DNA from: Candidatus Harrysmithiimonas galli
GTDB lineage: Bacteria > Bacillota > Bacilli > CAJFEE01
Reading direction: 5' to 3'
DNA length: 64,000 nt
NCBI GenBank assembly: GCA_904373265.1
Contig: CAJFEE010000003.1
Coordinates: 62,001 to 126,000 of the forward strand
Shown here piece after piece: positions 34,786-41,574 of the stretch. The notes under the pieces are model-generated. The model was not told the origin of the DNA and made no database searches. It saw only the letters and a program-made list of their open reading frames with translations. Position numbers and translations under genes: made by a program. The first letter of the stretch is position 1; every line of letters starts with the position of its first letter.

Positions 34786-34974
34786 ATGGCTCGTGTTTGT
34801 GCAATTACAGGCAGAAAAGCCCGTTCAGGAAACGCACGTTCTCACGCAATGAATGCAACAAAGCGTAAGTGGGGTGCAAACCTACAAAAAGTTCGTATTT
34901 TGGTTAATGGAAAACCAAAACGTGTTTATGTTTCTGCTCGTGCATTAAAATCTGGTAAAGTCGAACGTGTTTAA
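34786..34974 (+). CDS. rpmB: 50S ribosomal protein L28
   Basis: A 62-residue protein beginning [27 protein letters not shown], typical of L28. The zinc-ligand cysteines of some L28 paralogues are not present as CxxC, so this is the C-minus form. A perfect AAAGGAGGT ribosome site precedes it. It is transcribed opposite to fakA-yloU, as in B. subtilis. Confidence 0.98.
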
Positions 34975-35050
34975 TTATCGACTATTTTTAATGGATAATC
35001 AAATGCATATTAAACAAAAAGACTGAAACAAGATAAGGAGCAAATCATTA

Positions 35051-35087
35051 AAAAAGTGGAATGGAACCAATCCAATTTCACTTTTTG
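35051..35087 (+). terminator. Terminator after rpmB
   Basis: Arms AAAAAGTG...CACTTTTT extended by an imperfect GAATGG/CCAATT pairing, with a run of T at the 3' side, 76 bases past the rpmB stop. Confidence 0.65.
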
Positions 35088-35756
35088 ATGTATTTGCACT
35101 ATGTATACATATAATCATTAATATTCGGAATTTAACAGCTATAAGTACCCCATTCCATTTCCAATATTTGCTTTTCTTCGAACAAACAATCCATGAAAAT
35201 ACAAATTCCTTCAAACATTCAAAACCCATCATTTTTTCCTTCCTAGATAGATGAAATTTGTTTTTTCTCTAAAAGCCTTACACATGTGTATTCTTGAGTG
35301 TACATACTTCTCATTTCCCATTCATTTTTGCTAGACAAAACATGAACAACTTAAGTCTTTTTCTTTTGGATGGACAAAAATGGTTCCTAATGTACTTGAT
35401 TCATAATCTAGAACCAACCATACTTATACAAACACTCTCTTTTAAAAACTCTTTCATTTTACGCCTAAAAAAGACAGACTGAGATAAGCTATACGAGAGA
35501 ATTTTTAACATCATACATAGATAAAGGAAAACCGCCTATAATTTCAAAAAAATGGTTCCACCCCCCTTGCAGAATGCCTTCAACCAGATAATGAAAGGAA
35601 AAGATGGGATCATGATTTTGTAATTTCCTTTCTAAGATGTAAAAACAAGAGCAATGGGATTCAATATGATATGATTTTCAAACATCCAGACACTTCTTTT
35701 GATATAGATTTTATCGATAACTGAATTTGAACAGATGACATCCTTTTTATCAAAAA
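35088..35756. other. AT-rich spacer between rpmB and the chemoreceptor gene
   Basis: No convincing gene. Frames at 34999-35232 (minus) and 35294-35482 (plus) have no ribosome site, no motif and codon use like noncoding DNA. Confidence 0.45.
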
Positions 35757-35804
35757 ATCAAGACCACGGAATTTTTCTTATATTGTAAAATTCCCGTGGT
35801 CTTT
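35745..35804 (-). terminator. Intrinsic terminator after the chemoreceptor gene
   Basis: Stem AAGACCACGG-AATTTT (35760-35775) pairs with 35787-35803 with a single bulged base and an 11-base loop. On the minus strand it is followed by GATTTTTTG. It lies 25 bases after the stop of the upstream minus-strand gene. Confidence 0.87.
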
Positions 35805-35828
35805 TCATATCAAAAACAGGTTTTATCC

Positions 35829-37628
35829 TTATATCTCTTTTCGCAACGATTTTTTCACTTTAAAACGTTTGACCTCATTTTCTAACTGATGTGCACGTTC
35901 TTCAAATTTCATAGCACGATCATTCAGATCCATCGCTTGTTCTAAAATATTTGTACTTCTTTCTGCAATATCGGTAGTACCTACTGCCCCTTCACCAGCT
36001 GCAATGGATACTTCCTGAATGGTCTGAATAATACTTTGAATGGATGCAGACAAATTTTCAACATTCTCTTTAAATCCATTGATTAAGTTGTCTACTTGCA
36101 TTGCATCATCATTATAATGATTTCCTACATCCATAAACGCATCATAATCTTTTGTCACATCAACAGAAACAAAATTGTACAATCCTTCCGCACTCTTTGA
36201 TAAATTATCAACCGCTTCAACGACCTGATGGGTAACCTCTTGAATTTCTAAAACTGTATTTTTAGATTGTTCTGCCAAATTTCTAATTTCCATTGCAACA
36301 ACAGAAAATCCCTTTCCAGCTTCTCCTGCACGTGCTGCCTCAATTGCTGCATTTAATGCAAGTAAATTCGTCTGTCCGGAAATGTTCATAATTGACTCAG
36401 ACAAGATCCCAATTTGCTCAACAACCTTCGCTTTTTCTAAAGCCTCACGGAGAGTACTGGCAATTTCATCACGAATATCAAGCGCACGTCTGCGTGATTC
36501 TTGAACTTGTTCTTTTGTATTTTGTGCACCCTCGCTGATACGATCTACAATACTTGCCCCCTCTCGAGACTGATCCGCCATATCCTTTGTAGCAATTTCA
36601 ATTCGTTTTGAATTTGATGAAACCTCCTGTGCGGCTGCGGCTGTTTCTTCAATACTTGCCGATAATTGCTCTGTTGTTGCTGAAACCGCTTCAATTTCAC
36701 CAGATAAAGCTGTCATGCTCTTATTCATGCTTTGGATATCCGTTACAATATTATTTGCTTCTTCTCCCACTTTTGAAACCAAGCCACCGACAGAATCCTG
36801 CATATGCTGAATAGAGCGTGCCAAATTACCAAAATCTGCCTTATCTTGTAAAAATTTCTCTTCAACTGGCTGTGAAAAATCACCTGTTGCCATAATATTT
36901 GTTTGCTTCATAACCATATTTAAGCCGCTTGTAATTTGCCGAATAATCACAAAAGAAACAACCGCAACTATAATAACCACGATGATAAATATAATGATAC
37001 TTTCCTTAATTGATTTGGTCTGATATGTGTTCAACATCTGCTCTGTTTTATTGACTTTATCCATAATTGTCGTTGTATATTCACCAGTTACAATTACCCA
37101 ATTGTATGGCTCATATAACTGAGCGAATGAGGTTTTACTTTCTTCTTTCCCTGTAGCCGGATTTACATTCTGATATGAAACATAACCACCCTCTGTATTA
37201 TTTCGTGCTATGTTAATTAATTCCTGTACATATTTCTGTCCGTTTGCATCGGTTTCATTCAACAGGTTTTGTCCCTCTAATTCCTCCCTCCCCGGCCGGA
37301 CAATGGAGATTCCTGTTGTGTCCACAATGGAAAAATAACCATCCTTATGATAATGTAAAGCCCGCACAATGTTTGCTGAGCGTTCTTTGGCTTCCTCCAA
37401 AGTATAAAGACCTGTCTCATACTCTTGATAGATTGTATCCAGCATCGAAAATACAGTCTCTACTTGCCATGAATTTCCATCATTAAAAACTCCTTTTAAA
37501 GATTCAGTAAATTCGATAACTGCCTGTTCCTTTTGAGCATTTTGATGAAATAGATCATTTATCGTTAGAAAAACCATTCCCAATATGCCCACTAAGCTTA
37601 CTAACAAAATCTTTGTTTTAACTTTCAT
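35829..37628 (-). CDS. Methyl-accepting chemotaxis protein (single Cache sensor)
   Basis: A 599-residue transmembrane chemoreceptor. It has TM1 at about residues 7-25 and an extracellular sCache-type domain with the motif [20 protein letters not shown] and [14 protein letters not shown]2 lies near residues 195-220, followed by HAMP and a long coiled-coil signalling domain. The hairpin tip [19 protein letters not shown] and [15 protein letters not shown] are conserved. This Cache subtype in related receptors binds small carboxylates or related ligands; the ligand here is unknown. The ATG at 37628 follows AAGGAGAG. It stands alone between rpmB and spoVM, a non-standard position. Confidence 0.93.
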
Positions 37629-38901
37629 AAATTCTCTCCTTCTCACCTATAAAGTATCCATTCTAATTTTATAATTAAACATTATAATTTACAATATATT
37701 AAATAAGAAACATACTAAAATCCGTGTATAAAATATAGACAGCTTATTGGAAAAATATCTCTTACACAAAAAGTTTAAAATGATGGCTTCTTCTATGATC
37801 TTCATGTCATATGTCAATTGATTTCTTCTTGATTTTACATTACCAAAGTAGGTTGTTGTAGGCTACCGGAATATGGAAGTGAACAAAATTATAACGACAT
37901 TCTACCTAAGCAAAAGCAGGAAAACTTCCATCATTTATGGAACCAATTTTTTGATTCTTAAAAACACTCGGATGTACCATCTGACAAGATAAAAAGCAAA
38001 GATTGAAAATAAAATAGAAATGATATTCATAGCCATGAATTTCCAGACATTCAAAGCAAACTGTACAAACAAATTCTAAGATAAAATGATTTCATCCATA
38101 TAAAAAATCCGAACTGAGATGAATTCCCAAAGGTGAGTCCACATCAAATTCGGAGTTTTAACTTTATAGATTTCTGAACTTTAAAATATTTTTATCTATC
38201 CGAGATATTTTCGTTTTGTCTTAGTCTCTTTTTATAATTTGAAACTAGATTTATCCAAAGCTTTTTATTCATTGATAAAATAAATAATATCTAAAAATTT
38301 AATATAAAGAAATTTTACAATAATTTATTATGACACTTTACTTCAAAACAATTGTTCTCTAAAACCATACAGAAAAAAGCATCGAAAACTCAATTTGAAA
38401 ATAATGTACCAAACTTTTATATCACTTCCATTTCAAATCATTGTCAAGAGGGTCGAACCATTTTTATATTCCTAAATGTGAAGAAACAATTCATTCTTCA
38501 TTTGCTGAAACTATAAAATAACATTTTGATATGTGCTGGAACAAAAGCGGAAAAAATAAAAAAATAGAAAATAGCACTTTTAAAACATCTATGCTTTAAA
38601 CAAATTGCTGTGCTTGTTTGTTCTCTAAAAAGTAAATTTTCGCACTTCAACACCAACATTTAAATCTAGACAAAACACATCTACATATTAAAATGTATAA
38701 ATACCTAATAAAAAATACAGAAATCATTTCGATAAAGAAAATAAAAACTGTAGATCTAACCAAAGAAATCACATAGATCACTCATACCCTCTTTCATAAA
38801 ATAGGGTTTATTCCATTATCAAAAATCAACAATTTCCAAAATTATTTTATAAATATTTTATTGCCGTTTCCTAATAAAATGTTTTTCTACTTTTTGGCTC
38901 A
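37629..38901. other. 1.27-kb AT-rich region between the chemoreceptor and spoVM
   Basis: No intact gene on either strand. One candidate terminator-like hairpin (38103-38158) pairs TCCGAA/TTCGGA and GATG/CATC arms around a 30-base loop and is followed on the minus strand by TTTTTT. It could end the spoVM transcript, but it lies 750 bases away. The remainder is spacer-like with many stops in all frames. Confidence 0.5.
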
Positions 38902-38979
38902 CTATTTTTTAAATGTGCTAAGCAATGCCTTTACGATACCTCCAAGGAACTTAGGTAACTTAATCGTATAAAAACGCAT
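38902..38979 (-). CDS. spoVM: Stage V sporulation protein SpoVM (25 residues)
   Basis: Tiny amphipathic-helix protein that marks the convex forespore membrane and anchors SpoIVA to start coat and cortex assembly. The frame begins MRFYTIKLPKFLGGIVKALL and ends TFKK, differing from the 26-residue B. subtilis protein at only a few positions. Pro9, which sets curvature recognition, is kept. A strong GGGAGGCG ribosome site lies 6-7 bases ahead. The location, between rpmB and thiN, is the family's usual place. It is shorter than ordinary gene-calling cut-offs. Confidence 0.95.
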   Translation of the reverse strand: MRFYTIKLPKFLGGIVKALLSTFKK

Positions 38980-39022
38980 AAGGACGCCTCCCTTTTCGAA
39001 TTCACAAAAATTTTCCTATTGT

Positions 39023-39673
39023 CTAAAGCAATACATCAAGCTTTGAATCAGTACTCTTTATTACTAAAAGTATGCCTTTTTGAAACGAAATAGTACCTAC
39101 ATTTTTGCAAAATTCATTGCTTACAGTTAAGCTGCGCCCTTTTTTGATGTGACGTTGTTGCAAAGGATATTGAAAACCTTCCAATGTCAATGCCTCAACC
39201 ATTTCTGAATAGGGTAAAAAAGAAATATAACGAAATCTTTCATCATGTGCCAATTTATGACATCCTGCCAGTAAAAAAAACATTTCATTTTGCTCATCTT
39301 TGATAAAAATTTGAGTTGTATGCATCACCAAATCATATAACAAATCTAAAGTTGCAAGCTCATGATCCAACCGATGCCCGGTGGCACCATAAATGTGAAT
39401 TTCTTTTGGATCTTGTCTAATCGCCCAATCCAATGCCAACTCCAAATCAGTTTCATCCTTTTGTGTTGCATATACTTCTTTTTGCTGGACAGACTGAACA
39501 AATGTACGATGTTTTGCATCTATACTATCAAAATCACCAAAAATTCGCTGTGGGGCAATTCCTCGATCCAATAAATAGCCCACACCTCGGTCAACACCAA
39601 TCCAATAATCATTTATTGTATTTTCCAACTTTGCCTCTGGATTTCTACCACCAGCCATAATTTTTATTTTCAA
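39023..39673 (-). CDS. thiN: Thiamine pyrophosphokinase
   Basis: Converts thiamine to thiamine pyrophosphate. The 216-residue protein has IKIMAGGRNPE, VDRGVGYLLDRGIAPQRI, GDFDSID, KDETDLELALDWA and GATGHRLDHELATLDLL, the ThiN catalytic segments. The reading frame is open to 39760, but that extension runs through a terminator hairpin. The TTG at 39673, 7 bases after GGTGGTGAG, gives the family-sized protein and is taken as the start. Confidence 0.92.
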   Translation of the reverse strand: MKIKIMAGGRNPEAKLENTINDYWIGVDRGVGYLLDRGIAPQRIFGDFDSIDAKHRTFVQSVQQKEVYATQKDETDLELALDWAIRQDPKEIHIYGATGHRLDHELATLDLLYDLVMHTTQIFIKDEQNEMFFLLAGCHKLAHDERFRYISFLPYSEMVEALTLEGFQYPLQQRHIKKGRSLTVSNEFCKNVGTISFQKGILLVIKSTDSKLDVLL

Positions 39674-40023
39674 ATCACTCACCACCTGATTAGATTTTCC
39701 CTGATGACAGCTTACCATAGAAAAAAAGCAAAAACCGACAAAAAATTGTCGGTTTTTCATAAAAATAACGCTGGAAAATATACCTTTTCTTCAGTACATA
39801 ATATTTTTATTCATTGTCTTTTATGCTGCTACTTTTTATCATATCACTATGGTTTTTTCATTTCTGAAAAAATCACATATTTTTTTAAGAATTCGGGATA
39901 CTTGTATTCTGTAAACCCACTTGCTTCTCCTTCATTGAAAGACATAAGAAATACGCTACCTTTACAGATGACAACTGCCACACAACTTGGCGCAAAAGAA
40001 AATTTTATTTTGCGCTCTACAAT
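39674..40023. other. Spacer between thiN and rpe with two hairpins
   Basis: No gene. Apart from the strong terminator at 39730-39757, a second hairpin with GCGCAAAA/TTTTGCGC arms (39990-39997 and 40008-40015) lies 8 bases after the rpe stop and may assist termination. A 123-codon plus-strand frame crossing both is antisense to the 5' end of thiN and the 3' end of rpe. Confidence 0.5.
39722..39757 (-). terminator. Intrinsic terminator upstream of thiN
   Basis: Perfect 12-base stem AAAAACCGACAA / TTGTCGGTTTTT with a 4-base loop (39730-39757), with T-rich sequence following on the minus strand. It ends the long priA-to-rpe unit before thiN. Confidence 0.82.
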
Positions 40024-40671
40024 CTATGCTTCACGAATTTCACGAATTGCCTTTGCACGATCTGTTGCACAATAAATCGCATTTCCTGCAACCAAAACCT
40101 GTGCGCCTGCATCTTTACACAACTTAGCTGTCTCTCGATTTATTCCACCGTCCACTTCAATTAAAACATTTAAATGATTGGAATGAATTAATCGAGAAGC
40201 TTCCTCGATTTTTGGCAGCACATTCGGAATAAATTTTTGTCCACCAAAACCAGGATTCACTGTCATAAATAAAACCAAATCAATATCTTGGATTACATGT
40301 TGAATACTTGAAACTGGGGTTGCCGGGTTTAAAGAAACACCTGCCTTTACACCAAATGATTTAATAATTTGAACGGTACGATGTAAATGCTTGCTTGCTT
40401 CTGTATGAACAGTTATATAATCTGCACCTGCTTCAGCAAATACTGCAATATACTGATCTGGATTTTCAATCATTAAATGGACATCAAATGGCAATTTTGT
40501 ATATGGACGAATCGCCGAAACAATTGCCGGTCCCAATGTAATATTCGGTACAAAATGCCCATCCATAACATCAATATGAATCCAATCCGCTCCGTTTCTT
40601 TCTACGTCTTGAATTTCTTCCTTTAATTTTGCAAAGTCTGCTGACAATATTGACGGTGCCACCCATGTCAT
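40024..40671 (-). CDS. rpe: Ribulose-phosphate 3-epimerase
   Basis: Interconverts ribulose-5-P and xylulose-5-P in the pentose phosphate pathway. The 215-residue TIM barrel has [51 protein letters not shown] and [11 protein letters not shown]. It starts 2 bases after rsgA, so it is co-transcribed. Confidence 0.98.
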
Positions 40672-40673
40672 TT

Positions 40674-41549
40674 TTAATACCTCCGTTTTCTATCCTGAAT
40701 TTCCTGTACAAATGTGACATAATCTCTATATCTTGATGCCAAAATCTCTTGTTCTTCAACAGCCTCTTTTATTTTGCAATGCGGCTCATTCAAATGCAAA
40801 CATCCTCTGAATTTACATAAATCCTGCCGATCCACAAATTCTGGAAAACATTCACGCAAATCCTCCAATGTAAGCTCATCTAGCTCTAATGAGCTAAATC
40901 CAGGAGTATCCGCAATCCAACCGCCATATAAAGGAATCAATTCAACATGACGCGTTGTGTGCTTTCCTCGACCCAATGATTTTGAAATATTTCCAGTTTT
41001 TAAATCCAAATCAGGCGCCAAAATATTGAGCAGCGAAGATTTCCCAACACCAGTTTGCCCTGCGACAGTCGTAATCTTTCCAGGAATTCGTTCCTTTAAT
41101 TGCTGATCTACAAATTGATGTGAGCTGTAAAAAATGGTATACCCTATTTTTTCATATGGTTTTAGTTCCTGCTTTAGTTTAGACAATTCGTTTTCTGTCA
41201 ATAAATCCGTTTTCGTTATAATAATAATCGGTTCAATTCGATGATGCTCAACCAATACAAGAAAACGATTGAGCAAATAAAGTCGAAAATTCGGTTCTCT
41301 TGCTGAAAAAACCAAAAAGGCCTGGTCAATATTCACAATCGGCGGACGAATCAATTGATTTTTCCGTTCATGAATTTCTAAAACATAACCTTCTTCTGGA
41401 GATTCAGCTTTGTAAGTAACCCAATCGCCAACAAAAGGTGTTGTTTTATCTTTTCGAAATCTTCCGCGCCCTCGACAGGTGATAACCTGTTTTCCATTCT
41501 GTACATAATAAAATCCAGCTAAAGCTTTAATAATTTGACCTTCAGGCAT
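40674..41549 (-). CDS. rsgA: Ribosome small-subunit GTPase RsgA (CpgA)
   Basis: Circularly permuted GTPase acting in late 30S maturation; in B. subtilis it also influences metabolism and is phosphorylated by PrkC. The 291-residue protein has an N-terminal OB fold and G motifs in permuted order: [29 protein letters not shown]. It ends in a zinc knuckle, [14 protein letters not shown]. The ATG at 41549 follows GGGAGTGAAAGT. It lies just after prkC. Confidence 0.97.
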
Positions 41550-41574
41550 ACTTTCACTCCCACTGTACATTCGA

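Follow-up and report, generated by a model that had tools for sequence, protein, structure and literature searches.

SpoVM has been described as an amphipathic helix which prefers convex membranes, which recruits and tethers SpoIVA, and which loses its localisation when the proline at residue 9 (Pro9) is replaced by alanine (PMC12004969, excerpted text). The B. subtilis protein is available as PDB entry 2mvh, and its form with alanine at residue 9 as 2mvj. The B. subtilis gene is switched on by sigma-E (PMC517825, excerpted text). According to the excerpted text of Galperin et al. 2012 (PMC3533761), SpoVM is seldom recognised in genome annotation, and 70 newly identified copies are given there; that spoVM is missed in annotation is thus already known, having been published in 2012. 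A sequence-only reading of the DNA studied here had expected standard gene callers to miss its spoVM, which agrees with the rare recognition of SpoVM in the past reported in that text, but the NCBIfam models NF011327 and NF033436 both catch this copy.

The spoVM gene

The stretch of DNA analysed (64,000 nucleotides of Candidatus Harrysmithiimonas galli; hereafter, the window) contains on the minus strand, at 38902..38979, an open reading frame of 25 codons with an ATG start and a TAG stop, translated as MRFYTIKLPKFLGGIVKALLSTFKK. The protein passes the cut-offs of Pfam PF08183 (59.1 bits; cut-off 20.6), NF011327 (56.8 bits; cut-off 55), and NF033436 (51.7 bits; cut-off 31), and, with E 1.3e-14, the frame is the sole SpoVM match across the 2.70 Mb genome. 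Of 14 control genomes searched in the same way, one, B. subtilis, gave a match. The resemblance to SpoVM is real and far beyond chance. Direct reading of the sequence also bore out the claim of a strong ribosome site: AGGGAGG is found at 38987..38993 on the minus strand, 7 nt before the ATG. Comparison of codons 2–23 with those of 29 relatives revealed 173, 76, and 428 changes at codon positions 1, 2, and 3, respectively, and 306 of the 471 changed codons were synonymous; the third-position excess and the share of synonymous changes indicate that the frame behaves as a translated frame.

With only 25 codons, the frame could be imagined to look like SpoVM by accident, but the ribosome site, the codon-position pattern, the conserved neighbour genes (see below), and the genome-wide E value all speak against a chance frame; the last three together refute this reading, to which we assign practically no probability. 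The frame is a genuine, intact SpoVM, with nothing unusual for this well-known family; almost certainly, it is the orthologous spoVM of an endospore-former from the broad group that also includes B. subtilis.

Of its 25 residues, the window SpoVM shares 19 with B. subtilis SpoVM, among them Pro9; this is the extent of the match "almost residue for residue" that had been noticed. The differences are at residues 2, 17, 19, 21, 22, and 24, and three of the six substitutions are K/R exchanges. Identity to the SpoVM of a genome of the same family (G001; L019, L075) is likewise 19 of 25 residues, the G001 protein having 26 residues and the window protein 25. For a broader comparison, the window copy was aligned with 29 others (L004–L032), these 30 being the best-scoring among the 44 genomes in which SpoVM was matched, without the 14 lower-scoring ones; the codon preceding the R/K-F-Y-T stretch was taken as the start. 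Pro9 is kept in all 30 of these best-scoring copies, including that of the window. Their lengths are 25 (four copies), 26 (14 copies), 27 (11 copies), and 28 residues (one copy). The window protein is indeed one residue shorter than the 26-residue B. subtilis protein, as had been remarked, but its length is no oddity in a range of 25–28 residues. A 25-residue length was rejected as a peculiarity, since four of the 30 aligned copies share it.

Gene neighbourhood

The upstream neighbour of spoVM is thiN, coding for thiamine diphosphokinase (39023..39760, minus strand; TIGR01378, 187.5 bits). Because the TIGR01378 match begins at residue 34, the true thiN start is probably located downstream of the first start codon. 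Further members of the conserved gene order are rpe for ribulose-phosphate 3-epimerase (40024..40671, minus strand) and rsgA for a ribosome small-subunit GTPase (40674..41570, minus strand), while rpmB for ribosomal protein L28 (34786..34974, plus strand) is the conserved convergent neighbour. The order fakA-asp23-rpmB-spoVM-thiN-rpe-rsgA-prkC-stp-rlmN-rsmB of G001 matches that of the window. Searching 29 relative loci, which had flanks of at most 1.5 kb (one being shorter at a contig end), with the window proteins detected rpmB at 29, fakA at 28, asp23 at 25, rpe at 21, rsgA at 17, and thiN at 10 loci; rpmB is therefore the constant neighbour of spoVM, whereas thiN is not. The placement of spoVM between thiN and rpmB, as in G001, and the presence of rpmB at all 29 loci agree with the conserved location which the sequence-only reading had assumed.

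In the window, thiN is adjacent to spoVM, whereas rpmB lies 3.9 kb away, with a chemoreceptor gene (35829–37646; Cache and MCP signalling domains according to Pfam) in between. In G001, by contrast, the chemoreceptor stretch of 3.9 kb is lacking, and rpmB follows spoVM by less than 60 bp. The region 34975–38901, absent in G001, holds the chemoreceptor gene and about 1.2 kb of DNA with a GC content of 24–28%. A repeat search of 34900–39100 returned pairs that were for the most part weak and AT-rich, and did not reveal an evident insertion boundary. No terminator-like site was found at 37500–39200, and an Rfam scan of the window at the gathering score gave no match.

Candidate sigma-E promoter

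Inspection of the DNA upstream of 38979 for a sigma-E motif, as had been proposed, yielded a candidate promoter at 39067..39093 on the minus strand, inside the 3' end of thiN (CTATT, 14 nt, CATACTTT). It agrees at 10 of 12 positions with a sigma-E consensus, a score that 6 of 100 plain shuffles also attained. A similar site, ATATT, 13 nt, CATACATAT, was read by eye before the spoIVA gene of the same genome. Two patterns were shaped after the site had been seen: the window holds five copies of TATT-N13 to 15-CATACNNT versus 0.53 expected, and TATT-N14-CATACNT occurs without mismatch at the spoVM candidate site only; with one mismatch, the latter is no commoner than chance (6 versus 7.3 expected). 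A strict sigma-E consensus gave nine sites in the genome versus four in the reversed control; the candidate sites before spoVM and spoIVA are both missing from these nine. A sigma-E site common to the 30 spoVM upstream regions was sought, but not found. Given this post hoc choice of patterns and the overlap with thiN, the site remains a candidate.

A GGCATAYT likeness of the upstream regions of the window, L008, L012, and L019 was rejected; as judged by eye, it is thiN coding sequence for a Gly-Ile-Leu stretch near the C-terminus, and as it is explained by coding, it was left out as promoter evidence.

Sporulation genes in the same genome

The sequence-only reading had looked to spoIVA, sigE, sigF, and spo0A for corroboration, and had named the absence of spoIVA and of sporulation sigma factors as what would speak against it. 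Profile searches of the genome detected spoIVA (833 bits; cut-off 459.9), spo0A (380 bits; cut-off 200), sigE (406 bits; cut-off 348.6), sigF (358 bits; cut-off 321.5), and also sigG (495 bits; cut-off 457), all without internal stops. SpoIVA and the regulators above cut-off support the claim that the organism carries the endospore coat-assembly anchor. The window thus belongs to a genome that carries the endospore regulators searched for and an intact spoVM, and, judging from these genes, its source is likely a spore-former.

The sigK gene, whole in G001 (370 bits), is split in the window genome. Two pieces, each below the cut-off, match model positions 6–126 (contig C17:58813–59172; L076) and 108–226 (contig C28:1358–1714; L077). 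They have a 14-nt core in common, and a gene for a large serine recombinase overlaps the first piece with its end, an arrangement that resembles the skin element, described as being excised during sporulation; the window genome may by analogy carry a skin-like element. The halves are on different contigs, and the split may also be due to an assembly fault. Near the recombinase, L076:4680–5951 (minus strand) encodes a trypsin-like protease carrying ricin-type lectin domains, which is possibly located inside the sigK element.

The two sigK pieces on two contigs could be read as decay, with a true spoVM left as a relic after the loss of sporulation. However, the common core and the recombinase overlap are as in the skin element, a sigK match over cut-off is likewise lacking in all 14 control genomes, including B. 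subtilis, and spoIVA, spo0A, sigE, sigF, and sigG are above cut-off and uninterrupted, making a relic very improbable.

For the functional spoVM favoured here, localisation, SpoIVA binding, and sigma-E control are extrapolated from the family. By analogy with B. subtilis, the peptide would be made in the mother cell under sigma-E and would reside as an amphipathic helix in the outer forespore membrane, with Pro9 keeping its N-terminus flexible. It would favour the convex membrane surface and recruit the ATPase SpoIVA, which would polymerise to form the base layer of the spore coat. The window SpoVM keeps the sequence features described, and we infer from the family that its behaviour would be similar.

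Co-occurrence with SpoIVA and diverged copies

Among 61 genomes, SpoVM exceeded the Pfam cut-off in 44 and SpoIVA its own cut-off in 50, and all 44 SpoVM genomes fall within the 50 with SpoIVA. Co-occurrence with SpoIVA is common to the window SpoVM and B. subtilis SpoVM. One genome (G003) contains weak SpoIVA fragments only, and ten further genomes have neither protein. In the 44 SpoVM genomes, SpoIVA scores at least 761 bits, except for split or partial matches in G034 (648 plus 198 bits) and G056 (687 bits). The spoIVA match of G034 (C1:3783769–3785243) consists of two overlapping pieces, covering positions 1–109 and 104–492; this split may reflect a frameshift or a sequencing error.

In six of the 61 genomes (G015, G025, G026, G044, G058, G059), SpoIVA is present, with scores of 470–721 bits, and SpoVM is below the Pfam cut-off. 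With a laxer search, frames resembling SpoVM were detected close to rpmB in G025 (L091; 36 residues), G058 (L092; 36 residues), and G059 (L090; 29 residues). Examination of gene order, covering G026 and G044, located such a frame beside rpmB in both (L108, 34 residues, and L112, 31 residues, respectively); G015 remains without SpoVM. Residue 9 is proline in all five frames. Towards PF08183 (cut-off 20.6), they score 16.5 (G025), 16.7 (G058), 20.2 (G059), and 15.1 (G026), with no match for G044. The broad NCBIfam model (cut-off 31) is passed by G059 (43.9) and G026 (36.5); G025 and G058 (14.3 each) are below it and G044 again has no match, so that three of the five frames are below the cut-offs of both collections. 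The genes thiN and rpe flank the frame in G059, G026, and G044, and were not found within 1.5 kb of it in G025 and G058, where only fakA, asp23, and rpmB were detected. In G044, where 5 of 25 residues agree with the window SpoVM, the frame is tentatively assigned by its position and its proline only.

The wider comparison suggests that SpoVM sometimes seems absent only because it escapes detection, and that gene order recovers the missing copies, which bears on a question left open in the excerpted text of Galperin et al. 2012 (PMC3533761). The diverged copies are of more interest than the ordinary window spoVM itself. We tentatively propose, at somewhat less than even probability, that SpoVM and SpoIVA diverge together, such that lineages which seem to lack SpoVM and have low SpoIVA scores mostly keep a strongly altered, longer SpoVM with Pro9 beside rpmB; the five genomes come from just two families (f3 and f25), so that common descent could also account for the pattern. 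If the two proteins do co-diverge, Pro9 and an amphipathic stretch would make up the anchor's irreducible core, while residues 10–14 and the tail would be re-tuned to the respective SpoIVA.
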